Below are positions 35,174 through 63,940 of a stretch of 64,000 nucleotides of DNA, piece by piece. This DNA is from Cryobacterium glucosi (GTDB lineage Bacteria > Actinomycetota > Actinomycetes > Actinomycetales > Microbacteriaceae), in assembly GCF_004402235.1 (NCBI RefSeq), contig NZ_SOFS01000007.1:62001-126000 (forward strand). Direction: 5' to 3'. The translations under genes were made by a program, and so were the position numbers. Each line of letters starts with the position of its first letter. Position 1 is the first letter of the stretch. The notes beneath the pieces are model-generated. The model did no database searches, had not been told where the DNA came from, and worked only from the letters and a program-made list of their open reading frames with translations.

Positions 35174-35192
35174 AAGACACAGGAGAGAACTG

Positions 35193-35960
35193 ATGAACAC
35201 GCTATTTGACGTCTCGGGGAAGACGGCACTCGTCACGGGATCGAGCCGAGGAATCGGACTTGCGCTCGCGGGCGGCCTCGCGGACGCGGGAGTGCGGGTT
35301 GTCGTCCACGGACGCAACCGCGATCAGGTTGACGCGGCCCGCTCCGGGCTGGAGAAATCCGGCCGGGTGGAAACGATCGCATCCACCTTCGACATCACCG
35401 ACCCGGCCGCCGTCGCCGATGGAATCGCGGCGATCGAGAATGAGTGGGGTGTGCTGGACATCCTGGTCAACAACGCCGGAATTCAGCGCAGGGCCCCGTT
35501 CACCGAGTTCACCTTCACTGACTGGAACGACATCGTCGCGACCAACCTCACCGGTGCATTCCTGGTCGGCCAGCAGGCCGCTCGAGGGATGGTGACCCGC
35601 GGCAGCGGCAAGATCGTGAATATCGGATCGGTGCAAAGCCAGCTCGGGCGAGCAGGCATTGCGCCATACGCTGCGACCAAGGGCGGAATCTCGATGCTGA
35701 CGAAGGGCATGTGTGCTGACCTTGCGGTCAGCGGCATCCAAGTGAACGCCCTCGCGCCCGGGTATTTCGCGACAGAGCTCACGAAGGCTCTGGTCGCGGA
35801 CGAGGCCTTCAGCTCCTGGGTGCGCACGCGAACACCTGCCGGACGCTGGGGCGATGTCGCAGACCTGGTCGGCACCCTGATCTACCTCGTGTCGCCCGCG
35901 TCGGACTTCGTCAACGGGCAGACGATCTTCGTCGACGGCGGAATGACCGCCGTGGTGTGA
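35193..35960 (+). CDS. idnO: Gluconate 5-dehydrogenase (SDR family)
   Basis: Reduces 5-keto-D-gluconate to D-gluconate. Classical SDR, 255 aa: TGSSRGIGLALA cofactor loop, LVNNAGIQRRAPFTEF (the QRR after NNAGI is typical of this group), catalytic IGSVQSQLGR, PYAATKGG (Tyr, Lys), and a C-terminal FVNGQTIFVDGGMT. AGGAGAG precedes the ATG by 6 nt. Starts 19 nt after the 2-hydroxyacid dehydrogenase and is followed by idnD, reproducing the idnO-idnD pairing. Confidence 0.88.
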   Translation: MNTLFDVSGKTALVTGSSRGIGLALAGGLADAGVRVVVHGRNRDQVDAARSGLEKSGRVETIASTFDITDPAAVADGIAAIENEWGVLDILVNNAGIQRRAPFTEFTFTDWNDIVATNLTGAFLVGQQAARGMVTRGSGKIVNIGSVQSQLGRAGIAPYAATKGGISMLTKGMCADLAVSGIQVNALAPGYFATELTKALVADEAFSSWVRTRTPAGRWGDVADLVGTLIYLVSPASDFVNGQTIFVDGGMTAVV

Positions 35961-36039
35961 CGAGACCCGGTCAGGAACCTGGCCTGCACACAGCGGATTC
36001 AGCGAACGGAACCACATTCATAGGACAGAGGAGTCCAAC

Positions 36040-37095
36040 ATGTCGAATATTCACACCGGCGTTCTCGGCGTTGTCGCCCACGCCAAGGGAGACCTTCGGG
36101 TCGAGGTCATCGGAGAGCCGCGGCCTGAGGCTGATGAGGCGGTCGTTGAGGTCGCCTTCGGTGGCATTTGCGGATCAGACCTGCACTACTGGCTCGATGG
36201 GGCGGCCGGAGAATCCATTCTCCGAGAGCCGCTTCTGCTCGGGCATGAAATCGTCGGAACGGTCGTCACGTCGGCCGCGGACGGATCCGGACCCGTTGCC
36301 GGGACCCGTGTCGCGGTACACCCCCTGACGCCGGGGCCGGGTGATGGCAGTCGCTATCCGATCGAGCGGCCGAATCTTGCACCGGGCGGGACCTATCTCG
36401 GCAGTGCTGCCCGGTTCCCGCACCGGTCGGGTGCATTTGCCAGGCGGGTCGCGCTGCCCAGCCGGATGCTGCGGAAACTCCCGAAGGGGCTGTCGCTTCG
36501 CGACGCCGCTCTCGTTGAACCGGCCGCCGTTGCGTGGCACGCCGTTGGGCGAGCAGGCGAGGTGCGCGGCAGACGAGCTCTCGTTGTCGGGTGCGGTCCG
36601 ATCGGGTCGCTCGTGATCGCCGTGCTGCGGCACCATGGCGCAGCGGAGATCATCGCGGTCGACACGGTCGAGCCGCCCCTGTCGAGGGCGCGCCTGCTCG
36701 GTGCGACCCAAACGCTCCTCGCCACCGATGCGGACGCGATTGCGCGCGTCGACGCCGATATCGTGATCGAGTCGTCCGGCAACTACCGGGGACTCGAATC
36801 GGCGGTGCGCGGTGCCACCCGTGGAGGACGCATCGTGATGGTCGGACTGCTGCCGTCTGGCGAGCAGCCGGCCCTGATCTCGCTGGCGATCGTCCGCGAG
36901 CTGGAACTCGTCGGATCGTTCCGGTTCAATGACGAGATCGACGAGGTCGTGGCCGCTCTCGCCGACGGCTCCCTCGACGTCGGCGGAATCGTGACCCAGG
37001 TCTTCCCCGTTGGTGAGGCCGCTGCGGCCTTCGAAATCGCCCGCGACCCCGCTGCATCCGGCAAGGTCTTACTCAGCTTCGAAGAACGGGACTAG
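36040..37095 (+). CDS. idnD: L-idonate 5-dehydrogenase (medium-chain, zinc-dependent)
   Basis: Oxidises L-idonate to 5-ketogluconate. MDR fold, 351 aa: catalytic-zinc ligands in GGICGSDLHYW (Cys) and LLLGHEIVG (His, Glu), and NAD site LVVGCGPIGSLVIAV. GTYLGSAARFPHRSGAFAR matches the IdnD-specific FFGSAMYFPH-type segment. The four-Cys structural-zinc lobe of most relatives (CXXCXXC) is replaced by TPGPGDGSRYPIERPN, with no Cys there. AGAGGAG precedes the ATG. Followed 6 nt later by gluconokinase. Confidence 0.85.
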   Translation: MSNIHTGVLGVVAHAKGDLRVEVIGEPRPEADEAVVEVAFGGICGSDLHYWLDGAAGESILREPLLLGHEIVGTVVTSAADGSGPVAGTRVAVHPLTPGPGDGSRYPIERPNLAPGGTYLGSAARFPHRSGAFARRVALPSRMLRKLPKGLSLRDAALVEPAAVAWHAVGRAGEVRGRRALVVGCGPIGSLVIAVLRHHGAAEIIAVDTVEPPLSRARLLGATQTLLATDADAIARVDADIVIESSGNYRGLESAVRGATRGGRIVMVGLLPSGEQPALISLAIVRELELVGSFRFNDEIDEVVAALADGSLDVGGIVTQVFPVGEAAAAFEIARDPAASGKVLLSFEERD

Positions 37096-37101
37096 AACGC
37101 C

Positions 37102-37632
37102 ATGATCAACTCCGTCCAACATCCGCTTGTCGTCGTGATGGGAGTGTGCGGTGCGGGCAAGTCGACAGTCGGTGAACAGCTTTCGCGGGCCATCGGCGAG
37201 TCGTTCATCGACAGCGACGTGCTCCACCCCGCGGCCAATATCGCCAAAATGGCCGCAGGCCGTCCCCTCGACGACGCGGACCGGATGCCGTGGCTCTCGC
37301 TCGTCGGCGGCGCCCTTTCCGCCGCGCGAGCCGATGGCCAGGGGCTCGTCATTGCATGCTCCGCGCTCAAACGGAGCTATCGGGACGCGATTCGTGCCGA
37401 GGCGCCTGGAACGTACTTCGTGCACCTTTCTGGTACTCCTGAATTACTGGCGGCGCGCCTCCGCGACCGCGGAGGACATTTCATGCCGCCTGAGCTTTTG
37501 GAGTCCCAACTCCGTACTCTTGAGCCGCTCTGCGACACCGAGGAGGGAACCGTCGTCGACATCGCCGCAGGGGTCAGCGAAATTGTTGCCGCTGCGGTCA
37601 CGTCCCTGCGGGTTCCGGCGGTGTCTCAGTAG
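37102..37632 (+). CDS. gntK: Gluconokinase, GntK/IdnK type
   Basis: Phosphorylates D-gluconate to 6-phosphogluconate. 176 aa: P-loop GVCGAGKST (14-22), DSDVLHPAANIAKMAAGRPL (gluconate/ATP site), DADRMPWL, CSALKRSYRD and LRDRGGHFMPPELLESQL. Starts 6 nt after idnD, and with idnO completes idonate to 6-phosphogluconate. A second gluconokinase domain exists in the fusion at 57773; the two differ (for example SDVLHP here, GDDLHP there), so they are not a fresh copy. Confidence 0.92.
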   Translation: MINSVQHPLVVVMGVCGAGKSTVGEQLSRAIGESFIDSDVLHPAANIAKMAAGRPLDDADRMPWLSLVGGALSAARADGQGLVIACSALKRSYRDAIRAEAPGTYFVHLSGTPELLAARLRDRGGHFMPPELLESQLRTLEPLCDTEEGTVVDIAAGVSEIVAAAVTSLRVPAVSQ

Positions 37633-49687: not shown

Positions 49688-49749
49688 CCGGCGGGCACGC
49701 TACGGCCTGCCGGGCCTGACGGGTCTGTCCGCCGAACGAGAGACGAGCC

Positions 49750-50619
49750 TCAGGGGGCCTGTCGCAGGTCGGGTTTGTCCGGTGAGCCGGGCGGCGGAGT
49801 CAGCACTTCCACATTGCTCTTCCGGAAGGCCTTGGCCAGGTCGAGCGGCGGGGCCTGGTCGGTGATGAAGTAGTCAGCCCGGCCCAGCTCGGCGACCTGG
49901 GCGAAAAGCTGACGCCCGAATTTCGTTGAGTCCGCGAGGATCGCGACGCGCGAAGCCCGGGCGACCATCTCGCTCATCATGACCGCCTCGGCGAGGTTGC
50001 TCGTCGAGTATCCGCCATCGGCGGAGACGGCCCCCACCGAAATCAGGGCCAGGTCGCAGCGCACATCGAGGTCATTCCCGCTGCCCGCGAACTGAAACCC
50101 GACGGGTCCGATGGTCGACTGGCCGCTGAGGCGCACGGCGCCGCCGAAGACATAGAGGTCACGACAGACATCCGGTGGCATCTCGATCGGAATACGGAGG
50201 TTGTTGGTGGCCACCGTCAGGTTGCGGTGCTTGTCCAGGTGGCGCACCGCTGCCAGCGTCGTCGTGCCGGCGTTGATCATGATGACGGAGCCGTCCTGCA
50301 CGAGTCCGGCCGCCAGGGCGCCGATCTTGTCCTTCGCGGATGTCTGCAACCGCAACCGGAGGTCAAGTTTCTTCTCCGTCGTTTCCATGACCGATTGGCT
50401 GACCGCTCCGCCGTGGGTCCTGACCAGTACCCCGTCGGCATCGAGCTGGTCGAGGTCCCTTCGGATGGTGTCGGCCGAGACTCCGAAGTGCTCCGCGAGA
50501 GCCCCGACCGTGACCTGACCTGCTTCTGACACGTACAGGGCGAGATCGGCCTTGCGTCCCGCGGGCAGGCGGGCGGCCTGATCGGGCCGGTTCGAACGCG
50601 GGGCCGGGGAAGGGGACAT
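49750..50619 (-). CDS. DeoR-family transcriptional regulator
   Basis: 289 aa. HTH VGALAEHFGVSADTIRRDLD then VRTHGGA, followed by the DeoR sensor domain with the sugar-phosphate loop INAGTTTLAAVRHL and SVGAVSADGGYSTSN. ATG at 50619 lies 5 nt after TAATAT (minus strand); an ATG five codons upstream is an alternative. Divergent from the sugar ABC operon, separated by 270 nt carrying direct repeats; it should repress that operon and be released by a phosphorylated sugar. Confidence 0.9.
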   Translation of the reverse strand: MSPSPAPRSNRPDQAARLPAGRKADLALYVSEAGQVTVGALAEHFGVSADTIRRDLDQLDADGVLVRTHGGAVSQSVMETTEKKLDLRLRLQTSAKDKIGALAAGLVQDGSVIMINAGTTTLAAVRHLDKHRNLTVATNNLRIPIEMPPDVCRDLYVFGGAVRLSGQSTIGPVGFQFAGSGNDLDVRCDLALISVGAVSADGGYSTSNLAEAVMMSEMVARASRVAILADSTKFGRQLFAQVAELGRADYFITDQAPPLDLAKAFRKSNVEVLTPPPGSPDKPDLRQAP

Positions 50620-50625
50620 GCCTGA

Positions 50626-50889
50626 TATTAGCATTTTCTTGCATTTTCGTTCCGTGCTTTGTCGATTTCATCGGGCCAATTCCGGAGTTTCACGCATGAC
50701 CCTGCATGAATGAGTGACTCCCACTTGGTCGGCTCGACCGGTGAATCCGCCGAAATCAGGGTGTTGGCGCGTACAAATTGGTGCTTTTGTATGCTTGACG
50801 ATCGGCAATTCACTCCGCTACTATCATGCAACAAGGCGCAGAAAAGCGCATACAACAGCAGAACACAGCAAAACTTGGAATGGAGAACC
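50626..50889. promoter_or_regulatory. Control region between deoR and sugar ABC operon
   Basis: GCATTTTCTT and GCATTTTCGT (50631-50650) form a 10-bp direct repeat next to the deoR start, with a weaker GTGCTTTGTC just after (50655). The rightward promoter is TTGACG (50795-50800), 18 bp, TACTAT (50819-50824). GTGCTTTTGT (50781-50790) precedes its -35, and an opposing TTGTATGC pair lies near 50787 and 50850. These repeats are DeoR-type operators by position and form. Confidence 0.6.
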
Positions 50890-52182
50890 ATGAATAGCAA
50901 AGGCGCTATGGTCCGGAGGGCTGTCGTCCCTCTTGTCGTCGCAGGAATGGCCGTCACCCTCATCACCGGGTGCAGCACCAGTAGTTCGGTCACCGCGACT
51001 GCGGATCCGAACGAGAAGGTCACGCTGGAGTTTTCCCAGTGGTGGGAGCCGGAACTGCCCGCTGGTGCACTGCGCACCCTGATGGACGAATTTCAGACGG
51101 AGAACCCGAACATTACGGTCAAGCTGCTCAGCGCGCCGTACGCGGCAACCAAGGACCAGACGGTTGCCGGCGCGGCCTCGGGAGTTATGTCCGACGTTGT
51201 GGGACTTGACGGGGCCTGGGTGAGCGACTTCGCCAAGCAGGGCGCGCTCGCCGACCTCTCCCAGCTGATGAAGGACGCCGGGTACGACGAGAGCCAGCTG
51301 GCCAGCCAGGTCAAGATCAAGGACTCGACCTTCATGATCCCGGTGCTCAACTTCGTCTATCCCATGTTCACCAACGACGATCTGTTGGCCAAGGCCGGCG
51401 TCACGGCACCGCCCACCAACCGCACCGAGTTCACCGCGGCGGCCGAAGCTGTCACCAAGACCGGGGACGCCAAGGGTTGGGTCCTCCCGCTTTCCCTCCA
51501 GGCGCCGAACGGAATCCAGAATGACGTCATGTCCTGGGCGTGGGCATCCGGTGGCAGCATGCTCAAGAACGGAGCCCCGGACCTCACGAACGCCGCGGTG
51601 AAGAGCGCGACCAATTACGTGAAGGACCTCTGGGACAAGGGCGTCATCGCCCCCGGTTCCCTCACCATGACGGAACAGGACAAGGTGGAGGAATTCACCA
51701 ACGGCCGGGTCGGCATGATGATCGACTCCCTGTCGCACGTCACGAGCATCCGGGAAAAGAACCCGAACCTCAAGTTCAGCATTTCCGCCATTCCCGCGGC
51801 GGACGGTTTCACCGGCAAGCGCGGCATCCCATACGCGTCGTGGGGCATCGGTGTCTCCGACACCGGAAAGCACAAGGCGGAGGCCTGGAAGCTCGTGCAG
51901 TTCCTGATGAGTGAGAAGACCAACTCCACCCTGTCCACTCTCGCCCACGCCTTCCCCGGGAACACCAGCTCCACTCCGGACTTCACCGGAACCGACCCGC
52001 TCTTCAAGACGGCATTCGACATCTACAAGAGCGGCACACCCGTCAACGAGTTCGTCGGTCTCCCGGTCGCGGAACAGCTGATGCGTGACTTTGACGAGCA
52101 GTTCCAGGGCGCGCTGACCGGGACCCAGTCTGTCGACGACATGCTGACCAAAGCCCAGGGGGCCTGGGCCGCGAAGTTCTAG
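50890..52182 (+). CDS. Carbohydrate ABC transporter, substrate-binding lipoprotein
   Basis: 430 aa. Signal peptide with basic start, hydrophobic core and lipobox ITGC (Cys28). Cluster-D sugar-binding protein: VTLEFSQWWEP, NITVKLLSAPYAATKDQ, GDAKGWVLPL, FTNGRVGMMIDSLSHV, PYASWGIGVSDTGKHKAEAW. ATG follows TGGAGAA. First gene of the operon, separated from the permeases by an intercistronic hairpin that probably raises its relative yield. The sugar is not known; downstream enzymes point to a hexose or its phosphate. Confidence 0.92.
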   Translation: MNSKGAMVRRAVVPLVVAGMAVTLITGCSTSSSVTATADPNEKVTLEFSQWWEPELPAGALRTLMDEFQTENPNITVKLLSAPYAATKDQTVAGAASGVMSDVVGLDGAWVSDFAKQGALADLSQLMKDAGYDESQLASQVKIKDSTFMIPVLNFVYPMFTNDDLLAKAGVTAPPTNRTEFTAAAEAVTKTGDAKGWVLPLSLQAPNGIQNDVMSWAWASGGSMLKNGAPDLTNAAVKSATNYVKDLWDKGVIAPGSLTMTEQDKVEEFTNGRVGMMIDSLSHVTSIREKNPNLKFSISAIPAADGFTGKRGIPYASWGIGVSDTGKHKAEAWKLVQFLMSEKTNSTLSTLAHAFPGNTSSTPDFTGTDPLFKTAFDIYKSGTPVNEFVGLPVAEQLMRDFDEQFQGALTGTQSVDDMLTKAQGAWAAKF

Positions 52183-52207
52183 CCAGTCGGAGACAACTCA
52201 GCCTCGC

Positions 52208-52242
52208 GTGGCCGCGTCAGGACTCGTGCCTGACGCGGCCAC
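52208..52242 (+). other. Intercistronic stem-loop
   Basis: 14-bp perfect stem (52208-52221 with 52229-52242), 7-nt loop, between the binding-protein and permease genes. No U-tract; typical of a processing or 3'-protecting element that makes binding protein more abundant than permeases. Confidence 0.8.
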
Positions 52243-52266
52243 CCAAACTCAAGGAGGGATCACGTC

Positions 52267-53187
52267 TTGAGAACAACACGCACCCCAGGTGCTGAGCGGA
52301 CTACCGCGGCAAAGTCGCTGACCGGCAGGCTCACGCCGTACGGATTCATCTCCCCGACGGCGGCCCTGCTCTTCATCCTCATGTTCGTCCCGATCGCCAT
52401 GGTCATGGGCTACTCCGTCATGGACAACGTCATCACCAACAAGCATCCGGAGTTCGTCGGGCTGGACAACTACGTCAAGGTCCTCACCAACGGCGTCTTG
52501 CCGACTGCCGTACTCAATACGGCGATCTTCACCATCGTCAGCGTGATCGCACACCTCGTGCTCGGCCTGTTGTTCGCGATGATGCTCAATACGAAACTGC
52601 TCAGCAATCTCACCACCGGGCTCTTCCGGGTGATCTACGTGCTGCCCTGGCTGTTCACGGTCGCCATCATCGCCATCCTCTGGCGGCTCCTGCTCAACCC
52701 GAACGGCGTTATCAACTATGTTCTGGTCGGCCTCGGGATCACTCCCACCGGCATCGAGTGGCTGTCGACACCGGGAACGGCGCTTCTGGCCGTCACGTTC
52801 ATCAACATCTGGGCCGGGTACCCGTTCTACATGGTCAGCCTCCTGGCCGGCCTGCAGGGAATTCCGACGGACCTCTATGAAGCAGCCAAGGTGGACGGGG
52901 CTTCAGCGCTCCAGCAGTTCTGGCACATGACCCTGCCCCAGCTCAAGCCCATCATCATCAGCATGTCCCTGCTCGACGTCATCTGGACGTCGCAGCAGTT
53001 CGCGCTGATCTGGATGACCACCGGCGGTGGGCCCATCAACGCAACGGAGATGCTGAGCACATTCACGTACAAGCTGGCCTTCAGCAACTACGAGTTCTCC
53101 CAGGCCTCCGCGAGTGCCGTCCTGCTCCTGGTCGTGTCGACAGTCCTCGCATACGTCTATGCCCGATACCAGAAAGCGCGGGAGTGA
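52267..53187 (+). CDS. Carbohydrate ABC transporter permease (MalF-like)
   Basis: 306 aa with six helices and the EAA loop YEAAKVDGASALQQFWHMTLPQ in its two parts (EAAKVDGAS then LPQLKPI). TTG start after AAGGAGGGA. Pairs with the next permease to form the channel. The last codons are 1 nt from the next ATG. No ATPase gene lies in the operon, so a shared MsiK/UgpC-like ATPase encoded elsewhere is expected, as is usual in actinobacteria. Confidence 0.93.
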   Translation: MRTTRTPGAERTTAAKSLTGRLTPYGFISPTAALLFILMFVPIAMVMGYSVMDNVITNKHPEFVGLDNYVKVLTNGVLPTAVLNTAIFTIVSVIAHLVLGLLFAMMLNTKLLSNLTTGLFRVIYVLPWLFTVAIIAILWRLLLNPNGVINYVLVGLGITPTGIEWLSTPGTALLAVTFINIWAGYPFYMVSLLAGLQGIPTDLYEAAKVDGASALQQFWHMTLPQLKPIIISMSLLDVIWTSQQFALIWMTTGGGPINATEMLSTFTYKLAFSNYEFSQASASAVLLLVVSTVLAYVYARYQKARE

Positions 53188-53188
53188 T

Positions 53189-54034
53189 ATGGCTGCGACC
53201 CAAAGACGCGTTCGCCTGGTGAAGAAGGCCGGGCTGTTCATCGGCCTGCTGATCGGCGCCGTGTTCGCCGGATTCCCGGTGGTGTGGATGGCGTCGAGCT
53301 CGTTCAAGTCGAATACCGAGATCTTCGCCTCGCCGCCGAAACTGATCACGGACAACTTCTCCTGGGATGCGTACACGTCGATCCTGACCGACCCCACCAA
53401 GGTGCGGTTCTTCATCAACAGTTACGTGGTGTCCCTGTCCGTGACGGTGCTCACGCTCCTCATCGCCATCCTGGCGGCGTATGCCTTCAGCCGGTTCGAG
53501 TTCCGCTTCAAGAAACCCCTGAACATGATCATCGTGAGCGTGCAGGGCGTCCCGCCCATCACGCTCCTCATTCCGTACTTCGGATTGATGGTGACTCTGG
53601 GCCTGTACAACACCTACCTGGGCCTGATCCTCACCTACATGGTGTTCACGCTGCCCTACGCGATCATCATGATGACCGGCTACTTCAACACCCTGCCCAA
53701 GGAACTGGACGAGGCAGCCCGGGTCGATGGGGCGAGTGCGATGGGAGCGCTCTGGCGCATCCTCGTGCCGATATCCATCCCGGGCATCGTCTCGGTGGGT
53801 ATCTACACCTTCATGATCTCGTGGAACGAGTTCCTCTTCGCGCTGACCCTGACTCGCACCCAGGACATGCGTACCGTGCCCATCGGCATCCAGTTGCTCA
53901 TGGGCCAGAACTCCTACGAGTGGAACCAGATGATGGCGATGAGCATCCTCGGGTGCATCCCGGTCCTGCTCCTCTTCCTCTTCTTCCAACGCTTCTTCAT
54001 CGGCGGCATGACTGCAGGAGCGGTCAAGAACTAG
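53189..54034 (+). CDS. Carbohydrate ABC transporter permease (MalG-like)
   Basis: 281 aa, six helices; N-terminal FPVVWMASSSFKSNTEIFA and EAA loop DEAARVDGASAMGALWRI, LVPISIPGI. Start ATG at 53189 rather than the longer frame from 53114, which would overlap the first permease; ribosome site is GGGAGTG. The aldolase gene begins 52 nt later on the same strand. Confidence 0.93.
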   Translation: MAATQRRVRLVKKAGLFIGLLIGAVFAGFPVVWMASSSFKSNTEIFASPPKLITDNFSWDAYTSILTDPTKVRFFINSYVVSLSVTVLTLLIAILAAYAFSRFEFRFKKPLNMIIVSVQGVPPITLLIPYFGLMVTLGLYNTYLGLILTYMVFTLPYAIIMMTGYFNTLPKELDEAARVDGASAMGALWRILVPISIPGIVSVGIYTFMISWNEFLFALTLTRTQDMRTVPIGIQLLMGQNSYEWNQMMAMSILGCIPVLLLFLFFQRFFIGGMTAGAVKN

Positions 54035-54085
54035 CCGCGTCTGCCTTTTCCCTCTCGTCTCACCCCAACCAAGGAGAACCACCGC

Positions 54086-54946
54086 ATGTTAATGAATGGA
54101 ATCGACCTTCTGGCCGTCGCGAATGCGAACGACTTCGCTGTCCCGGCGTTCAACGTCAGCGACTACGCGATGATGAACGGCCTCTTCGAGATCAGCGAGG
54201 AGAAGAATTCCCCGCTGATCATTGCGATCCACCCGGACGAACTGAGCCACATCGGCGTCGACATGCTTCCCGCGATCATTGCGCGCGCTCACCGCTCGAC
54301 CGTACCCGTCACCATCCACCTGGACCACGGGGCGACCTACGAGCAGGTGCTCGTGGCCATCCAGAGCGGCTTCACATCCGTCATGATCGACGGATCGCTG
54401 CTCCCGTTCGCCGACAACGTGGCGATCACGAAGCGGGTCGTCGATGCCGCGCACGCCGTGGGCATCTCGGTCGAGGGTGAGCTCGGCACGATCGGCAAGA
54501 CGGACAGCGAGGCCGAAGACGGCACGGCGACCATCATCTTCACCGATCCCGACGACGCGGTGAAGTTCATCGCATCCACCGGCGTGGACAGCCTGGCCAT
54601 TGCCATCGGCACGAGCCACGGCATCTATCCCGCAGGCATGAAGCCAGAGCTCAGGCTGGACCTGCTCCGCGAGATCACCGGCAAGGTCGGCATCCCCCTG
54701 GTCCTTCATGGCGGATCCAACAACCCGGACCAGGAAATCGGGGAGGCCGTGCGGCTGGGAATCAATAAGATCAATATCTCGAGCGACATCAAATCGTCGT
54801 ACCACTCCAAGATGCGGGAGGTCCTTGCCGACCCGGGTGTGCGGGAGCCGAACACGATCCAGCCGCCGTGCGTCGCCGCCATGAAGATCACCGCGGCGCA
54901 GAAGATCGACCTGTTCAATGCGGCCGGAAAAGCAGCACTCTACTAA
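54086..54946 (+). CDS. Class II fructose/tagatose-bisphosphate aldolase
   Basis: 286 aa zinc aldolase of the GatY/KbaY/FbaA group, cleaving a ketohexose-1,6-bisphosphate into glyceraldehyde-3-phosphate and dihydroxyacetone phosphate. Metal and catalytic motifs: VTIHLDHGATYEQV, VEGELGTIGKTD, AIAIGTSHGIYP, LVLHGGSNNPDQ. Phosphate loop NISSDIKSSYHSKM. AAGGAGAA precedes; ATG 54086 or 54092. Next to a sugar kinase, so tagatose-, fructose- or sorbose-type bisphosphate is likely; sequence does not decide. Confidence 0.9.
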   Translation: MLMNGIDLLAVANANDFAVPAFNVSDYAMMNGLFEISEEKNSPLIIAIHPDELSHIGVDMLPAIIARAHRSTVPVTIHLDHGATYEQVLVAIQSGFTSVMIDGSLLPFADNVAITKRVVDAAHAVGISVEGELGTIGKTDSEAEDGTATIIFTDPDDAVKFIASTGVDSLAIAIGTSHGIYPAGMKPELRLDLLREITGKVGIPLVLHGGSNNPDQEIGEAVRLGINKINISSDIKSSYHSKMREVLADPGVREPNTIQPPCVAAMKITAAQKIDLFNAAGKAALY

Positions 54947-54950
54947 TCGA

Positions 54951-56153
54951 ATGGCACATATCTCCATGCGCGAAAAACTGGTGTTGGGGCTCGGCGGAAC
55001 CGTCGACTACGAGATCGCCTGGGACTCCCGGGTGATCGAGCACCTCATCCGCGAGTACTCCATTCGCGCGTCGGAGCTGGATGCCTCGATCCCGGTCATG
55101 AGCGAGCGGGACCTCGTCGTCACGTTGCTCGCCTTCCTCGAGGGCGGTGCCGGAGGAGAGCGATTCGTCGCCTCCTCCGACATCGTGGAGACGTTCGCCG
55201 CCCGGTTCGATAGAAGGATCACCCTGGGCGGCACGTGCGTGCGCGCCGCGATGGCGATGCAGGCGCTCGGCATCGAGAGCACTGTTCACTTGGTCAGCAT
55301 CGACGATCACGTTCGCAGGCTGCTCCCCGCGGGATGCGCCTACCTCTGCAGCGCAGACCACGACACGACCGATCCGCATCTCATCGTGCAGTTCAACGCG
55401 GGCGCGCGCGTCCAGGCCGGCGACATCGACCTGCGTGCGCCGCACCCGAATCGGGTCATCTACGCCAATGATCCACCGAACGAACAGCTGCTGTTGAGCA
55501 ACGCTCTCGGAGAGGTGCTCCGAGATGCCGAGGTGTTCCTGATCTCGGGGTTCAACGTCATCCAGGACACGGACCTGCTCCAAGAACGGTTGGTGGACAT
55601 CCTTCGGCACATGCAGCAGTTGCCGGTAACAGCCGTCGTCTATTACGAGGACGCCGGATTCCATGTCCCGGCGATGAGCCGGTACGTGCGCGACGCGCTC
55701 ATCGGGGTGATCGACGTGTACAGCATGAACGAGGACGAAATGCAGGCATACCTGGGACGCCCCGTCGACCTCCTGGCCGTCGACGAGGTGGCCGAGGCGC
55801 TCCGGGAATTGCAGCGGCTGATCCCCGCCGCGACCCTGGTCGTGCACACGAAGTATTGGTCACTCGCCCTGGGCGAGTTCGCCGCCTCCTATGGCGCGAG
55901 CCTCCAGGGCGGCATCACGATGGCGAGCACGCGATATTGCTACGGGGACGATTTCACCGAGCGGGACTACCGGGAAGTCGACAACCGGATGCCCAGCGTG
56001 CCCGGTACTCGGTTCGCCTCCGATCTCGAGGACCGGATGGGGCACACCGTCCGGTGCCTGCCCGCGTTCGCGCTCACCGTCGCCGCGCCGACGACCATCG
56101 GACTGGGCGACTCGTTCGTCGGCGGGTTCATCGCTGCCCTGGCTCGGCGCTAG
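54951..56153 (+). CDS. ADP-dependent phosphofructokinase/glucokinase-family sugar kinase
   Basis: 400 aa ribokinase-like fold of the ADP-PFK/GK type (PF04587), a family best known in archaea. Evidence: GLGGTVDYEIAWD at residues 13-25, LGGTCVRAAMAMQALGI, a middle block VIYANDPPNEQLLLSNALGE followed by LISGFNVIQD, and catalytic TTIGLGDSFVGGFIAAL (GLGD). Starts 4 nt after the aldolase, so the two likely work in sequence: a hexose-phosphate is phosphorylated then cleaved. Start could instead be ATG 54966. Use of ADP rather than ATP is inferred from family only. Confidence 0.78.
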   Translation: MAHISMREKLVLGLGGTVDYEIAWDSRVIEHLIREYSIRASELDASIPVMSERDLVVTLLAFLEGGAGGERFVASSDIVETFAARFDRRITLGGTCVRAAMAMQALGIESTVHLVSIDDHVRRLLPAGCAYLCSADHDTTDPHLIVQFNAGARVQAGDIDLRAPHPNRVIYANDPPNEQLLLSNALGEVLRDAEVFLISGFNVIQDTDLLQERLVDILRHMQQLPVTAVVYYEDAGFHVPAMSRYVRDALIGVIDVYSMNEDEMQAYLGRPVDLLAVDEVAEALRELQRLIPAATLVVHTKYWSLALGEFAASYGASLQGGITMASTRYCYGDDFTERDYREVDNRMPSVPGTRFASDLEDRMGHTVRCLPAFALTVAAPTTIGLGDSFVGGFIAALARR

Positions 56154-56237
56154 CCGGGCGGACAGTGGTCGAAGCCGGGCCGGCTGCCGTTCCAGTGAAG
56201 ACCGGGTCGCTCCGGTTCCAGAGAGTGCGGCCCAGGA

Positions 56238-56987
56238 CTAGGACGACCGTTCGCCGGTCAGCCACTCGTCGAATGTCGTGGGAGCCTCGCCCTCGTCCCC
56301 GGTGCCGCGCAGCACCCCGGAACGCATTCCGCGCCAGTACGCGCAGGGAAGGGACACCCCGAGTGCCGGCATCCGTCGCCCGTCGGCCCGGATGACCTTG
56401 CGCACCATGCCGAGGAGGATCTCATCCCGCGGCCCGCGCAGGTCGCGGTGACGTCCCCGCTCGGTGCCGTCGGCGATCGCAACGAGGGCGTCGGCCACGT
56501 CGGCGGCCGCGATCGGACGCAGCAGTCCGGCGGGGACCAGGGCGATCGGGCCGAACGACGCGCGACCGAGCACCTGCCGCGCGAACTCGTGGAACTGGGT
56601 GGTTCGCAGGATGCTGAACGGCACCGGCCCGGCGGTGACGAGGCGCTCCTGTTCGACCTTCCCGGCGTAATACCCGAGCGGTAGGTAGTCGATTCCGACG
56701 ATGGACAGCGCCACGTGGTGTCCCACCGACTGGCGCACTTCCGCGGCGAGCAGGTGCCTGGTCGCCGCGCCGAAGAACTCGACGGATGCTGCGGCTGAGG
56801 TGCTCGCCACGCTCGTGACGTCGATCACGGCATCCGCTGCCGTGAGCGCCGCGTCGAGTCCGACGCCGGTGCTGACGTCCTGCCCGGTTGACCGTGACAG
56901 CGGGACGACCTCGTGACCACGGCGTTGGGCGACCGCAACGACGTGCCTGCCGACGGTGCCGGTCGCCCCGGCTACGACGATCCTCAT
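56238..56987 (-). CDS. NAD(P)-binding SDR (NmrA/atypical) protein
   Basis: 249 aa: cofactor loop VVAGATGTVGRHVVAVAQ, and LSIVGIDYLPLGYYAGKVEQE with Tyr-x3-Lys, PFSILRTTQFHEF, ending in TTFDEWL. Such proteins act as reductases or as redox sensors; substrate unknown. ATG at 56987 is preceded by GGAGGGG. Separated by 13 nt from the upstream GNAT gene on the same strand, so probably co-transcribed. Confidence 0.82.
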   Translation of the reverse strand: MRIVVAGATGTVGRHVVAVAQRRGHEVVPLSRSTGQDVSTGVGLDAALTAADAVIDVTSVASTSAAASVEFFGAATRHLLAAEVRQSVGHHVALSIVGIDYLPLGYYAGKVEQERLVTAGPVPFSILRTTQFHEFARQVLGRASFGPIALVPAGLLRPIAAADVADALVAIADGTERGRHRDLRGPRDEILLGMVRKVIRADGRRMPALGVSLPCAYWRGMRSGVLRGTGDEGEAPTTFDEWLTGERSS

Positions 56988-57000
56988 GATGCGACCCCTC

Positions 57001-57519
57001 CTAGGACGTTGTGAGTTGCTTGACCATCTCGAGTTCCCGGGTCGTCGGGTCGAGGTCGTAGGGCGCGGTCACGCCGGTTGCCGCGAAGCCGCGGTGCTCG
57101 TAGGCGGCGCGGGCGCGGTCGTTGTGCTCGTGCACGTGCAACGTGAGCCGACCCGATTCCGTGAGCGCCCAGTCCTCGATGCGCGACAGGAGGGCATCCG
57201 TCACGCCGGCCGCCCCGCCGCGGTAGTCCGGCGCGACGTAGACACCGACGAGCAGCGCACCCGTCGCCTCGTCGGGAACGTAGCCGCCCATCGTCCCGAC
57301 CCAGCGCCCAGAGGGCGCGATCGCCACGACGACGATCGAATGCTCATGGGTGCCGCGCGCTCCGCGCATGGTCCATTCGGCCTCGTCGTGGGCGAGCGCG
57401 GCGTCGAAGGTCTCCCCGAAGGCGAGGGGCGTGTCGTGGAGCATCTCCAGTCGAAGTTCCCGGATCTCGCGCCAGTCTGCCGCCGTCGTGCGGCGAATCG
57501 TGAACCCCTCGGTCATCAT
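57001..57519 (-). CDS. GNAT-family N-acetyltransferase
   Basis: 172 aa. Starts FTIRRTTAADWREIRELRLE and carries the acetyl-CoA loop VYVAPDYRGGAAGVTDALL, then LHVHEHNDRARAAYEHRGF and a final beta strand. TATCGT lies 6 nt before the ATG at 57519 on the minus strand, so leaderless start; a second ATG follows immediately. Substrate cannot be inferred. Confidence 0.87.
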   Translation of the reverse strand: MMTEGFTIRRTTAADWREIRELRLEMLHDTPLAFGETFDAALAHDEAEWTMRGARGTHEHSIVVVAIAPSGRWVGTMGGYVPDEATGALLVGVYVAPDYRGGAAGVTDALLSRIEDWALTESGRLTLHVHEHNDRARAAYEHRGFAATGVTAPYDLDPTTRELEMVKQLTTS

Positions 57520-57644
57520 CCACGCACGATAGCAGGGAAGCGCGCCGGGTCGAGGTGAAGCGCCGCGCTCACCGGGTCCGCGCCGCGTGCGGGCCACGCA
57601 CGCCTCGACTTGACGGCTCTCTCCCGGAGTGCCACACTCGCAAT

Positions 57645-57673
57645 ATCTGATTAATCAGATTAATCTGATTAAT
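57645..57673. promoter_or_regulatory. AT-rich operator array upstream of gntK-edd fusion
   Basis: ATCTGATTAAT occurs directly at 57645-57655 and 57663-57673 and inverted at 57650-57660, giving nested palindromes (CTGATTAATCAG; ATCAGATTAATCTGAT at 57654-57669). It stands out sharply against the GC-rich surroundings, about 100 nt before the fusion gene, and is likely the binding site of a regulator encoded elsewhere. The divergent intergenic region 57520-57772 holds nothing else I can assign. Confidence 0.7.
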
Positions 57674-57772
57674 GAAATTCAGCGTCAACCTCGCTGTGCC
57701 CGCGTCAGCGGAGCGCGGTGACCTGGGCCTGACAATGAGGTCGCGCCGAAGCGTCCTCGCGAGAGGACGACG

Positions 57773-60268
57773 ATGTACTCATCCACACCACCCGGACTGA
57801 CGAAAGCAACCCCACCAGCCCGCGTCAGCAGCGACCCGCACACCCCTGTCGGCGTGCCCGGCCCGCAACCCGTCCTGGTCATGATGGGGGTTTCCGGCTC
57901 GGGCAAGTCGACCGTAGCCGCTCTCCTCGCCAGCCAGCTCGGGTGGGACTTCGTCGAGGGCGACGATCTGCACCCCGCGGCGAACGTGGCCAAGATGGCG
58001 TCGGGCACTCCGCTCACCGACGAGGACCGCTGGCCCTGGCTCGACACCGTGTCGTCCTGGATCGTCGAGCACACCACGGCCGACCTCCCCGGCATCGTCA
58101 CCTGCTCGGCGCTGAAGAAGAAGTATCGGGACGTGCTGCGCGAGCAGAACGTGATCTTCGTGCACCTCGTCGGCTCAAAGGACCTGCTCGGCGCACGGAT
58201 GTCTGCCCGACTCGACCACTACATGCCGGCCAGTCTTCTCGATTCGCAGCTGGACACCCTGGAGCCGTTGGATTCCGACGAGCGCGGCATCCTGATCGAC
58301 GCGTCGAGACCGCCCGCCGAGGAGGCCGCCAGGATCGTCACGATGCTCGGCCTGCGGCCGGCCGCAGGCTCGTCCGCACCCGGTGCGGCCACATCAGGGC
58401 ATTCCACCGCTCAGCTGCCGGTGACCACCGCGGTGATCCACCCGGTCGTCGACGCGGTCACGCGCCGGGTCATCGAACGCAGCGCGCAGAGCCGGGCCAG
58501 GTACCTCGCCCGGATCGATGCTGCCGCGGAGCAGGGGCCAACCCGTGGTCGCCTCGGGTGCGCGAACCTCGCCCACGGCTTCGCCGCCACCGGCCAGCAG
58601 GACAAGGCCGCCCTGCGCGCCTTCGTGAAGCCGAACATCGGGATCGTGTCCTCGTACAACGACGTGCTCTCCGCGCACCAGCCGTTCGCGGCCTATCCGG
58701 CGATCCTCAAAGACGCCGTCCGGAAGGCCGGAGGCATCGCGCAGGTCGCGGGCGGCGTGCCCGCGATGTGCGACGGCATCACCCAGGGCAGAGACGGCAT
58801 GCAGCTGTCGCTGTTCAGCCGCGATCTGATCGCCATGGCGACCGGCGTCGCACTGGCCCACGACCTGTTCGACGGAGCGTTGCTGCTCGGCGTCTGCGAC
58901 AAGATCGTGCCAGGCCTGGTCATCGGCGCGCTGGCCTTCGGTCATCTCCCGGCCATCCTGGTGCCGACCGGTCCGATGAGCTCCGGGATTCCGAACAAGG
59001 AAAAGAGCCGGATCCGCGAGCTCTACGCCGAAGGCCTGGCCGACCGTGAGCAACTTCTCGAGGCCGAGACGGCGTCGTACCACTCCGCAGGCACCTGCAC
59101 CTTCTACGGAACGGCGAACTCCAACCAGATGCTGATGGAGGTCATGGGACTCCACCTCCCCGGTGCGAGCTTCGTCAGCCCGGACTCCCCGTTGCGCGAG
59201 GCCCTCACCGCCGCGGCGGCCCGCCAGGTGGTCGCGCTGACCGAGCTGAAAGACCGGTACACCCCGATCGGACGCGTGGTGGACGAGCGGTCGATCATCA
59301 ACGGCGTCGTTGCCCTGCTTGCCACCGGAGGGTCGACGAACCACACGCTGCACCTCCCGGCCATCGCGGCCGCCGCGGGGATCCAGCTCACCTGGCAGGA
59401 CTTCGCGGACCTGTCCGAGGTCGTTCCCCTGCTTGTCCGCATCTACCCCAACGGCCCTGCCGACATCAACCACTTCCACGCCGCCGGGGGCACGGCGTTC
59501 CTGATCGGCCAGCTCCTCGACGCGGGCTTGCTGCACCCCGACGTCCGCACCGTTGCCGGCGCGGGACTCGACGCCTATCGCCGGGAGCCGGTGCTCGACG
59601 GAAACGCCCTGAGCTACCGCCCGGGACCGACCGAGAGCCTCGACACGGACGTGCTGCGGCCCGCCTCAGCGCCTTTCGCGCCGAACGGCGGACTCCGGAT
59701 CCTGGACGGCAATCTCGGCAGTGCGGTCATCAAGGTCGCCGCGGTGGCGACCGAACACCACGTCATCCAGGCGCCCGCGGTGGTGTTCGACGACCAGCAC
59801 GTCTTCCTCGCAGCGTTCGAAGCCGGTGAGCTCGACCGGGATCTCGTGGCCGTGATTCGGTATCAGGGCCCGTCCGCAAATGGAATGCCCGAGCTGCACA
59901 AGCTCACCCCGGCGCTCGGCATCCTCCAGGATCGCGGCTATCAGGTCGCTCTGGTCACCGATGGGCGGATGTCCGGCGCGTCGGGAAAGATCCCGGCCGC
60001 CATCCACCTCACCCCCGAAGCCGCAGCGGGCGGTCCGATCGGCCGCATCCGCGATGGCGACCTCGTACGCCTCAACGCGACGGCGGGCACCCTCGACGTC
60101 CTCCTCGACGACGACGTCTTCGCGGCCCGCGAAATCACCGGTGCTGCGCTCGACGACGTCAGCTGGTCCGGCACCGGTCGGGAGCTCTTCTCGGTCTTCC
60201 GCCGGCAGGTCGGCCCGGCCGACCGTGGCGCCAGCGTCATCACCAACACACTTGAAGGAGTCCTCTGA
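57773..60268 (+). CDS. gntK-edd: Bifunctional gluconokinase / 6-phosphogluconate dehydratase fusion
   Basis: One 831-aa frame. Residues ~30-195 are a complete GntK-type gluconokinase: P-loop GVSGSGKST (39-47), [40 protein letters not shown]. An Ala/Ser/Gly linker (~198-218) leads to Edd from about residue 221: [18 protein letters not shown], iron-sulfur cysteines in AMCDGITQG (Cys333), [10 protein letters not shown] (Cys375) and GTCTFYG (Cys442), and [18 protein letters not shown]. No stop, frameshift or internal ribosome site marks the junction. It would convert gluconate to KDPG via 6-phosphogluconate. ATG follows GAGAGGA; stop overlaps eda. Confidence 0.92.
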
Positions 60269-60900
60269 TGTCCACCCTGAACGCAGCCCAGCTGCTCGAG
60301 CTCGCACCCGTGATCCCCGTCGTCGTCATCGAGGATGCCGACCGCGCGGTGGCACTGGCCCGGGCACTCGTGGCGGGTGGCCTGCCGGTTATCGAGGTGA
60401 CGCTGCGCACCCCGGCTGCACTGCGTGCGATCAGTGCCATCGCCGACCAGGTGCCCGACGCCGTCATCGGCGCCGGAACGGTCAACAACCCGGAACTCGT
60501 GCGTCGGGCCGCCGAGGCCGGGGCCCGGTTCCTGATTTCTCCCGGGTCGACCGATGCCCTGCTCGACGCGATGGACGCATCCGGTCTGCCCTACCTGCCG
60601 GGAGCCGCGACTGCGTCGGAGGTCCTGCGGCTGATCGAACGCGGACACCCGGAGATGAAGTTCTTCCCTGCCGAGGCGTCCGGCGGCCACGCGGTGCTGC
60701 GCTCACTCGCGGCGCCCCTGCCGGAAGCGCGGTTCTGTCCGACGGGCGGGATCACGCTCGCGAGCGCGCCCGTCTACCTCGCGCTTCCCAACGTTGGGTG
60801 CATCGGCGGCACGTGGATCACTCCGCTGGATGCCATTGAAGTCGGCGACTGGACGCGTATCGAAGGACTGGCCCGCCAGGCCGCCGGCCTGCGGCCCTGA
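60268..60900 (+). CDS. eda: KDPG (2-keto-3-deoxy-6-phosphogluconate) aldolase
   Basis: Splits KDPG into pyruvate and glyceraldehyde-3-phosphate, the final step of the Entner-Doudoroff pathway. 210 aa class I aldolase: [25 protein letters not shown] (Glu), [21 protein letters not shown], Schiff-base Lys131 in [11 protein letters not shown], and [18 protein letters not shown] overlaps the fusion-gene stop (TGATG), so production is coupled to the upstream kinase-dehydratase. Confidence 0.95.
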
Positions 60901-60929
60901 ACTGCGGCACTCGGCTTGGGCTCTGGCTT

Positions 60930-60945
60930 CGGCTAGGCCTAGCCG
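60930..60945. terminator. Short palindrome between eda and convergent gene
   Basis: CGGCTAGGCCTAGCCG is a perfect 16-bp palindrome that covers the stop codon of the minus-strand gene. Too short and loop-less to be a sure terminator. Confidence 0.3.
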
Positions 60946-61721
60946 AGGCCCGCGATCCGGTTCAGTGCGGCACGCATGATGAGCTCGGCGGGGTCGTCGA
61001 GGACCTCGTGGTTGAGGTAGAACGCTTCGAACCACGCGCGCACTTCCTCCTCGGGGAGCCCGACCGCAACCCAGTCGACCCCGGCGACCGCTTCGGAGAC
61101 CGGTTCCCCCGTGCCGGCATCGAGCCACGCCCGCACAATCGGCGTCTCGGGGTCCGCGTCTTCCGGGTTCCAGGTGAGGATCAGGCTGCGTGCCTCGTCG
61201 TCCGTGTGCAGATGGTCTGTGCGCCCGGACCCCAGCCAGGGCAGCATCATCTGCTCGCCGGGAATGGCAACGTCCACGATCTCCAGGGGCACCGCCCCGA
61301 AGTCGCGGGCGTAGACCCGAAGTCCTTCGTGGTGCCAGTCGGCGGCCTCTTCGGCGTCCTCCGCGAGATCTTCGAGCAGAGGGAGAGTGTGCTTGACGAG
61401 CGCCAGGGCCCACGCCACGAGTTCCTTCGTCTCCCGCTTCGGCCACGGGCTGCGATCAGTCTCTTCTCCGTCGGCGCCATGGAAGTGGTGCTCGACACCG
61501 TCAGGCGTCGTTTCCAGGTGCAGCTCTCCGCCCTCGAACCCGAGGGAGAACACAGCCACCTCTTCTTCGTCGGCCTCGCCCTCACCGTCGACGAACCAGT
61601 CGGCGTTCAGCACCGGGTTCCGGAACTGGGTCGGCAGCGGCGGAGCCTCCAACGGCAGGTCGCCCAGGTCCAACACCGCCCGGAAAACAGTGTCCGGCAT
61701 TCGCAAGGTGGGGTCAGTCAC
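60939..61721 (-). CDS. Acidic cytoplasmic protein of unknown function
   Basis: 260 aa, strongly acidic, no signal peptide or membrane segment. Visible stretches: DWFVDGEGEADEEEVAVF, LALVKHTLPLLEDLAEDAEE, and LMLPW-type loop (QMMLPWLGSGRTDHL). GTG start after TGAGGAGTACCT. Reads like a conserved hypothetical of Microbacteriaceae, but I do not recognise a domain. About 70 nt upstream begins the transposon-like end, so its natural upstream region may have been displaced. Confidence 0.6.
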   Translation of the reverse strand: MTDPTLRMPDTVFRAVLDLGDLPLEAPPLPTQFRNPVLNADWFVDGEGEADEEEVAVFSLGFEGGELHLETTPDGVEHHFHGADGEETDRSPWPKRETKELVAWALALVKHTLPLLEDLAEDAEEAADWHHEGLRVYARDFGAVPLEIVDVAIPGEQMMLPWLGSGRTDHLHTDDEARSLILTWNPEDADPETPIVRAWLDAGTGEPVSEAVAGVDWVAVGLPEEEVRAWFEAFYLNHEVLDDPAELIMRAALNRIAGLG

Positions 61722-61761
61722 AGGTACTCCTCAGTCCGCGTCGAGAATACCGGAAACGAGG

Positions 61762-61787
61762 CGTCGGGAAGTGACGTCGGGAAGTGA
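61762..61787. repeat. 13-bp exact tandem duplication
   Basis: CGTCGGGAAGTGA occurs twice without spacing (61762-61774, 61775-61787), directly outside the putative transposon terminus at 61793. Confidence 0.8.
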
Positions 61788-61798
61788 CACGGTGTGAG

Positions 61799-61842
61799 TT
61801 CTTGAGGTACTTGAGACTGGATTCTTGAGTTGAGACTATGGA
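61799..61842. repeat. Tandem terminal repeats of the putative transposon
   Basis: TTCTTGAG-GTAC-TTGAGACT (61799-61818) and TTCTTGAGTTGAGACT (61822-61837) are two imperfect copies; a further GTGAGACT lies at 61891-61898 and CTCGC-GATTG-GCGAG at 61861-61875 can fold. No coding frame across 61722-61975. Confidence 0.6.
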
Positions 61843-61975: not shown

Positions 61976-63940
61976 CTAGACGGTGGTGCGAAGTATCCGT
62001 TCTTCAGCCGGGCATTTCGGGCAACCCTTGGAGAGTAAACGGTGAGGGACGCTCTGCTGGTGGGTGTGTCCGTTTGCCGTGCATTTCCACCAGAGAAGTT
62101 GAGTGCCGGCGGAGATTTTGCTCGGCACTTTGGGGTGGTTGAGGTAGGGGTGGAACTCGGTGACGAGAATTGGCTGTGTCGAGGCGAGGTCGTTGACGCC
62201 GGGAACGAGTGTTCGGCGGGAACACACCGAGCACTTGTATCCGGCCGTGCGTCGTTCGATTCGCTCTCGATATGTGTGGCCCGCGGGGCATAGCCAATAC
62301 ATGTTGTCACCCGACCCGCGGGTACGGTCGGAGGGCTTCACCTTCCCGTTCAATGTCGGGTGCCATTCTGCCGCGATTAGCGGATGGGACTCATCGAGGC
62401 CTTCAGTGCCCGGCCGCTTTCTTCCCGTTCGGCACTGTTGGCAGCCCTTGCTCTTGACTCTGTCCGCGATAGACATTGGGTACTCGTGGTCGTTGGGGCA
62501 CACCCACCTGATGGATTCTTGGCTCCCGGCGCCGTATTTGGTCGGAGGAAACCGTCGCAGCCAGCTGGGGTGCCATTCGGCGAGTAGCTGGGGGTGGGTG
62601 GTCGCGATGTCGTTGATGCCTGGAACGATGAGGCGGTTCAGGCAAACCGGGCATTTGGACCGGGCGGCCGTTCGATTCGACGCGGTGGCAGGGTAGTTGT
62701 GCCCTTTGGCGCAGCGCCAGATGTAGTACTCCTTGGAACTTGCCGGGATCTGTTTGGCAGTGAGGCCGCCATTTTTCGTTTCGTCGAATTCTGCCGCTAT
62801 TTCTGGATGGCTGGATTCCAGGTCGTTGTAGCCAGGCTGGATGACGTCGTTTTGACATACGGGGCATTTGAGCGGCGTGGTTGCGGGAGGTGCGAACGGT
62901 CGTGCTCGGTCTGTCTCGAATTGGTGACCGGAAGAGCAGATCGTGAGCACTTGGCGTTTGCGTCCGACGGATGGATTCGGGGCTCCAACTCGTCGTTCAC
63001 TGACGAATCCGAGGCCGAATCGGGCGGCGCTCGCCGGGTCGTCGCCGGTGACCGCGAGGTAGTTGCTGAAGGGTTCGAGTTCCGTGGGGCCACTCGTAAG
63101 CGAGTTGGCAACTGCTGTGTTGAGCGGAAAGTCGTGTGGCCAGGCGAGTTCGAATGGTGAGGCCGTGAGGGCGCTGTGGCGGACCGCCCAGGCCGTCGGA
63201 CGGGCATAGAGCCAGAGTGCTCGAGAGAGGTCCGTGGCGGGCGAGCCAATGACGTTGTCGAGCGTGCTGACCAGGTGTGCGTAGGCGTCGGTGAAGCGCG
63301 TGTTCGGATTGAAGAAGATGCGCGCGAAATCCGGTGTGGTGATTGCCGCGGCGATGGCGATGGCGAGCGGAAAGGTCTCGGCTTCCGTCGGTGAGTCGTC
63401 GTCGCGGTCGGCTTCAGGTGCGAGAGCCTGCCCGAGGAGCGTGAAGAGGCGCACGTCGATGCGGTGTTGGCGGCGGAGTTTGCGGAACTGGATTTCGGCT
63501 TCGATGTGCTCGCTGGTCACCGGGTGCTGGTCTTCGGGCGCTGTAGTCATCCCGACCCATCGTGAGTGGCGGATGCAAACCAGGTTCTCGAAGTGGGGAT
63601 TCTGTTCAATGGAGGCTCCGTGGCTGCAGAGGGTGCACATCCAGCGCTGGGGCAACAGCTCGGAGCAGAACTCGCAAGTGCTGCCATCGTCGTGGGTGAG
63701 CCAGCCGGAGGGGTGCGGGAGGAGGTGCAGGTCGGCGCGTTTGTTCTTCGCTGTGAGGACGCTGAGCCACGCTGCGTCTCTGTCGATGCGGGTCTTGGAG
63801 TGGGTGGTCAGTGTGATGAGCTGGTTTCGGTGCTGGTCTGTTTCGAAGTTCGCCTCGAGGAGGCGCCGGGTGTAACTCTCCATGGTTTCGCGGTGGCCGG
63901 GACGCACGTCGAATGGATAGCGTCGGCTGAGTTCGCTCAT
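61976..63940 (-). CDS. TniQ-like protein with five C-terminal zinc-ribbon (DUF4379-type) repeats
   Basis: 654 aa. N-terminus RYPFDVRPGHRETMESYTRR resembles TniQ/TnsD openings; a zinc cluster follows (Cys89, 92, 102, 105, 122, His125, in TCEFC, MCTLC, VCIRHSRWVG). After an all-helical middle (~140-320) come five units of CxxxH...CxxC about 70 residues apart: Cys335/His339-Cys359/362, 410/414-430/433, 481/485-500/503, 551/555-570/573 and 620/625-640/643, each linked by HPxLxAEWHP-type text. TniQ proteins choose the target site for Tn7-like transposition; the ribbon array may read DNA. ATG overlaps the previous gene stop. A treble-clef nuclease partner is the alternative. Confidence 0.6.
   Translation of the reverse strand: MSELSRRYPFDVRPGHRETMESYTRRLLEANFETDQHRNQLITLTTHSKTRIDRDAAWLSVLTAKNKRADLHLLPHPSGWLTHDDGSTCEFCSELLPQRWMCTLCSHGASIEQNPHFENLVCIRHSRWVGMTTAPEDQHPVTSEHIEAEIQFRKLRRQHRIDVRLFTLLGQALAPEADRDDDSPTEAETFPLAIAIAAAITTPDFARIFFNPNTRFTDAYAHLVSTLDNVIGSPATDLSRALWLYARPTAWAVRHSALTASPFELAWPHDFPLNTAVANSLTSGPTELEPFSNYLAVTGDDPASAARFGLGFVSERRVGAPNPSVGRKRQVLTICSSGHQFETDRARPFAPPATTPLKCPVCQNDVIQPGYNDLESSHPEIAAEFDETKNGGLTAKQIPASSKEYYIWRCAKGHNYPATASNRTAARSKCPVCLNRLIVPGINDIATTHPQLLAEWHPSWLRRFPPTKYGAGSQESIRWVCPNDHEYPMSIADRVKSKGCQQCRTGRKRPGTEGLDESHPLIAAEWHPTLNGKVKPSDRTRGSGDNMYWLCPAGHTYRERIERRTAGYKCSVCSRRTLVPGVNDLASTQPILVTEFHPYLNHPKVPSKISAGTQLLWWKCTANGHTHQQSVPHRLLSKGCPKCPAEERILRTTV

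Follow-up and report, generated by a model that had tools for sequence, protein, structure and literature searches.

The analysed window, a stretch of 64,000 nucleotides from the Cryobacterium glucosi contig NZ_SOFS01000007.1, contains a single gene coding for both gluconokinase (GntK) and 6-phosphogluconate dehydratase (Edd), two enzymes that are normally separate proteins. The fused gene lies next to eda, and the features referred to below are as follows:

34115-37632, idonate/gluconate-type cluster, about 20 kb upstream of the fusion
57647..57676, + strand, operator-like repeat (TGATTAAT repeated): the palindrome CTGATTAATCAG, then two degenerate copies, in 9-base steps
57773..60268, + strand, fused gene GntK-6-phosphogluconate dehydratase, 831 aa, ATG to TGA
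57875..58333, + strand, gluconokinase domain, residues 35-187 (TIGR01313; PDB 4eun, 3t61, 1knq)
58343..58345, + strand, possible internal start ATG, residue 191, with AGGA 8 nt upstream
58355..58420, + strand, junction, residues 195-216: native gluconokinase C-terminal tail, then Edd start
58439..60244, + strand, 6-phosphogluconate dehydratase domain, residues 223-824 (TIGR01196; Cys 333, 375, 442)
60268..60900, + strand, eda, 2-keto-3-deoxy-6-phosphogluconate (KDPG) aldolase, 210 aa (PF01081, TIGR01182)

The first-pass annotation of this DNA had described one uninterrupted 831-codon frame, and this was borne out: no internal stop occurs in 57773-60268 (+), both domains are complete, and an AGGA ribosome-binding site lies 5 nt upstream of the ATG start. 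Equally, the announced overlap of the fusion stop with eda was found (TGA at 60266-60268, eda ATG at 60268, one base in common), together with the GntK P-loop GVSGSGKS (residues 39-46) and the three Edd cysteines C333, C375 and C442. At the G+C of this DNA, the mere openness of such a frame proves little: when 64-kb windows of the same base composition were simulated 60 times, their longest stop-free runs had a mean of 486 codons and went up to 799.

Profile searches assigned the N-terminal part to TIGR01313 (183.8 bits, cut-off 113.75, profile positions 1-157 of 164) and the C-terminal part to TIGR01196 (972.6 bits, cut-off 708.25, profile positions 1-601 of 601), whereas the best IlvD model reached 361.5 of the 644 bits required over the latter; Pfam agreed with both assignments. 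Solved relatives are 4eun, 3t61 and 1knq for the kinase and 2gp4 (831.2 bits) for the dehydratase. The GntK motifs, including further stretches at residues 111-120 and 146-164, align with E. coli GntK 1knq, with P-loop (GxxGxGKS) and substrate motifs intact, which we take to be gluconokinase signatures. C333, C375 and C442, presumably the Fe-S ligands of Edd, are invariant across the seven rows of alignment A1, and 90% or more of the rows in alignment A2 (27, two of them kinases only) have them as well. The fusion thus has in common with stand-alone GntK/IdnK proteins (TIGR01313; E. coli 1knq, 4eun) the whole domain, P-loop and substrate motifs, but where these end at a stop its kinase runs on into Edd without one; with stand-alone Edd (TIGR01196; PDB 2gp4) it has in common the full length, the three conserved cysteines and the edd-eda order, but its Edd bears an N-terminal kinase that the stand-alone enzyme is without.

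The eda product scored 214.9 bits with PF01081 and 234.8 with TIGR01182 (cut-off 156.05), and stayed under the cut-off of the equivalog model PRK06015 (258.4 vs 320). An AAGGAG lies 7 nt upstream of the eda start, within the 3' end of the fusion, and eda may be translationally coupled to the fused gene.

Among 57 genomes of the host genus, the full frame was found in three (G000, G002 and G008), the last with a likely sequencing frameshift. In G002 the fusion frame is retained at 95% identity; in G008 identity is 93% up to residue 713, where the frame shifts. Since ilvD is also in pieces in G008 and completeness of the assembly is put at 83%, this shift is probably sequencing noise and not a true break. 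A fourth genome of the genus, G051, carries a decayed copy with remnants of gntK, edd and eda in the same order as in the intact fusion loci; the stretch of the operator-like repeat is missing there. The two near full-length family matches and the retention of the frame in G002 and G008 indicate that the fused gene is real, and a GntK-Edd fusion next to eda is therefore confirmed as an observation.

The operator-like repeat is kept in G000, G002 and G008. Allowing up to two mismatches, CTGATTAATCAG has three matches in the window, all at 57647-57676 (expected 0.51; one of 100 shuffles equalled this), and a Sigma-70 scan of 56900-61800 found no promoter-like site. Upstream, genes at 50710-56153 code for a sugar-binding protein, an ABC permease, a class II aldolase and an ADP-dependent-glucokinase-like kinase, which looks like a sugar catabolic operon, beside a DeoR-type regulator in the opposite orientation (49750-50634); approximately 49690-56240 is missing here in G008 and G051 and present in G002 at least from 51195. 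Downstream, similarity to G002, G008 and G051 ends near 61754-61775 and is back near 76150 in G002 and G051, leaving a strain-specific stretch of about 14 kb (61755 to about 76150 in window coordinates, on the same contig). Inside it, 61976-63940 codes for a protein of 654 aa in which DUF4379 zinc-finger stretches occur four times.

What had been described as an Ala/Ser/Gly linker between the two enzymes turned out to be the ordinary C-terminal tail of the stand-alone gluconokinases of the host family. This tail, GSSx(L/F)GAxxPGxS(S/T), sits beyond the kinase fold and was found in 26 of 36 stand-alone host-family GntK loci (L002, L007-L031), the ten loci without it all belonging to genus g36; these 36, being the best matches of the genus and family searches, are not a random sample. 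The count leaves aside L175, which duplicates the L002 locus, and L004, the IdnK-like kinase of the window, which is also without the tail. In other genera of the family the stand-alone proteins end in ...KPAAGSSALGAPNPGQSTAPKRG (G177) and ...KPAAGSSALGALNPGRSTV (G099), so that the resemblance of the fusion to the GntK of its own family extends to the C-terminal tail. Directly after it, ten residues of the fusion resemble the start of free Edds. An inherited tail followed by an Edd-like start points to a gntK that lost its stop and ran into the start of edd.

Pairwise dN/dS among the three species, with G008 included only up to residue 706, was 1.07-1.56 over the first 30 residues, 0.17-0.24 over GntK residues 31-194, 0.46-0.90 over the fast-evolving residues 195-216 (22 codons) and 0.04-0.08 over the Edd domain. 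Purifying selection thus appears to act on both enzymes, and constraint on the joint and the N-terminus is slight. In the predicted structure (mean pLDDT 71.7), which is poor for the kinase half, its alignment holding only three kinase rows, pLDDT falls below 50 at residues 196-218, and the junction is predicted to be disordered.

As for the origin of the two halves, a rapid phylogeny built from 131 Edd rows placed the three fused Edds within a group of 20 (SH-aLRT 93, not starred) made of Pseudonocardiaceae and a few other actinobacteria, the Edds of the host order falling elsewhere. In the kinase tree, built without actinobacterial kinases from outside the host family, the GntK of the fusion grouped with host-family kinases (91/86), outside the group of the other family rows (98/97). 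By identity, its closest kinases are those of the host family (79% in G177), against at most 59% in ten edd-bearing genomes. Taken together, trees and kinase identities suggest that the edd part probably came from a different lineage of actinobacteria and was then joined to a host-family gntK. The stand-alone gntK stands behind a permease gene in both G177 and G099, that of G177 being a gntP match (420.8 bits).

No other fused edd was found in the genome searches (1983 genome scans counted, repeats included; the samples held one genome per species and some genomes were scanned repeatedly), and among the genomes searched stop-free matches of fusion length came from the host genus only. The host-family sample (398 genomes) gave no Edd-grade match besides the owner of the fusion; 19 others have a match that passes E 1e-70, in each case over the kinase part and never past residue 260. 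A free edd is present in 19 others of 396 host-order genomes, followed each time by eda at a short distance, and no gntK was found within 1.5 kb flanks of these loci. Edd-grade matches were also obtained in one other of 396 genomes of the phylum sample, 23 others of 188 in the class sample (two already in the order sample), 23 of 150 in the order around Amycolatopsis, 26 of 190 in the class of Niveispirillum and all ten genomes chosen for having edd. The order of Gilliamella gave 95 of 197; ten of these reach well into the kinase part, each with at least one stop. Because the 1e-150 cut-off used for the Amycolatopsis-order, Gilliamella-order, Niveispirillum-class and class samples hid weaker kinase rows, long open frames (about 770 codons or more) round stand-alone edds were checked for a concealed kinase in 11 regions plus L047, L156 and L158; no gntK was found in them.

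With GTDB contigs, gntK was absent from the flanks of 79 of the best 80 of at least 593 loci. The remaining one, in Gilliamella, was rejected as a second fusion, stops being present between gntK and edd, and the same holds for Aeromonas caviae, where a single tblastn piece likewise has stops between the two genes. Matches were present in 1018 plasmid records, and in 20 of these the match spans 80% or more of the query (19 of them among the matches listed); separate genes were seen in the three plasmid loci inspected (Aeromonas, Azospirillum, Vibrio), 11 plasmid rows, Vibrio included, annotate edd and gluconokinase separately, and six more Azospirillum rows are unannotated. Viral contigs gave two loci, with matches beginning at residue 222, and none of the 33 matches in phage records spanned 80% of the query. 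The adjacent gntK-edd pairs of a Vibrio cyclitrophicus plasmid, Aeromonas caviae, Azospirillum brasilense and Gilliamella have the same enzymes, order and strand as the fusion, but they are separate genes, with a stop between them or in different frames, whereas the fusion is one frame; even the 4-nt overlap in Vibrio cyclitrophicus leaves two genes. NF041633 (KHG/KDPG aldolase-sugar kinase fusion) likewise joins enzymes around the KDPG branch; by its name, and presumably in the rest of its contents, it combines an aldolase and a sugar kinase and, unlike the present fusion, has neither Edd nor GntK. The first-pass annotation knew of no well-described enzyme of this form, and indeed no counterpart emerged from the genomes searched or from the open-access literature, in which no GntK-Edd fusion was found in print; passages of PMC10847513 and PMC11544825 make no mention of one.

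On the evidence of sequence comparison, the reading we favour, with a probability of about 0.75, is that of one bifunctional gluconate-to-KDPG polypeptide feeding Eda, which arose probably once by loss of the gntK stop and joining to edd. The joining would go back to the common ancestor of a small number of species within a single genus. The polypeptide would have both activities, and the fused chain would be the main product of the gene. That an assembly or sequencing error deleted the stop between two adjacent genes can practically be dismissed: close gntK/edd neighbours do exist in other genomes, but the junction is gap-free and open in three separately assembled species.

More weight attaches to a dual product, in which an internal start, ATG at residue 191 or GTG at 221, would add a free Edd to the fused chain. 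G000, G002 and G008 all retain ATG191 together with the AGGA that precedes it by 8 nt, so that a free Edd may also be made; Met is absent from the corresponding place in the stand-alone family kinases compared, and codons 182-194 (13) are identical in the three species, three sequences being a comparison of low power. Still, the AGGA motif is short, conservation is lacking in the codons closest to the Edd start (GTG217 only in G000, ATG214 only in G008), and upstream of GTG221 only a GGTGA match is present; we regard a second product as possible but rather unlikely. The kinase half might also be vestigial, so that the protein would function only as an Edd preceded by a long N-terminal stretch. 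The host genome has two further gluconokinase-like genes (37102-37632 and one on contig C13), hence the fusion is not the sole entry for gluconate, and with GntK less constrained than Edd the kinase half could be dispensable; dN/dS above 1 over the first 30 residues goes in the same direction. However, the values of 0.17-0.24 over residues 31-194 and the unbroken P-loop and substrate motifs speak against this, and loss of kinase function seems very unlikely.

In the bifunctional enzyme we favour, the N-terminal domain would convert gluconate and ATP to 6-phosphogluconate, the C-terminal Fe-S domain would convert 6-phosphogluconate to KDPG, and Eda would then split KDPG into pyruvate and glyceraldehyde-3-phosphate. 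In the cell, the fusion would presumably act on gluconate, part of which could come from the idonate-type cluster 20 kb upstream. This cluster (34115-37632) comprises a 2-hydroxyacid dehydrogenase, an SDR near gluconate 5-dehydrogenase, a Zn-dehydrogenase near L-idonate 5-dehydrogenase and a gluconokinase, and is followed by an MFS symporter at 39636. The SDR and L-idonate-type dehydrogenases are under curated cut-offs, and the kinase (37102-37632) is over that of TIGR01313; cluster and third kinase might either feed gluconate to the fusion or compete with it. A Pfam scan of 37 of the window's 54 predicted proteins showed no GntP-family permease beside the fusion.

The host genome also carries gnd and two zwf-type genes, which makes 6-phosphogluconate a real branch point. 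It is conceivable, although unlikely, that the fusion holds newly formed 6-phosphogluconate near Edd, committing gluconate to the Entner-Doudoroff route and leaving glucose-derived 6-phosphogluconate for the dehydrogenase. Such a hand-over of substrate, raised as a possibility in the first-pass annotation, is speculation; the junction, an inherited and fast-evolving tail predicted to be disordered, lends it no structural support. If true, a branch point would be controlled by the joining of proteins.

The fusion adds no new reaction or pathway. Its enzymes are well known, the architecture is new within the searches made, and its distribution is narrow and clade-specific. It clearly illustrates how loss of a stop can fuse two genes, with a 'linker' traceable to the tail of one parent, and it offers a two-step biocatalyst. 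For these few species, it may serve as a natural test of whether joining consecutive enzymes alters flux at the 6-phosphogluconate branch point.
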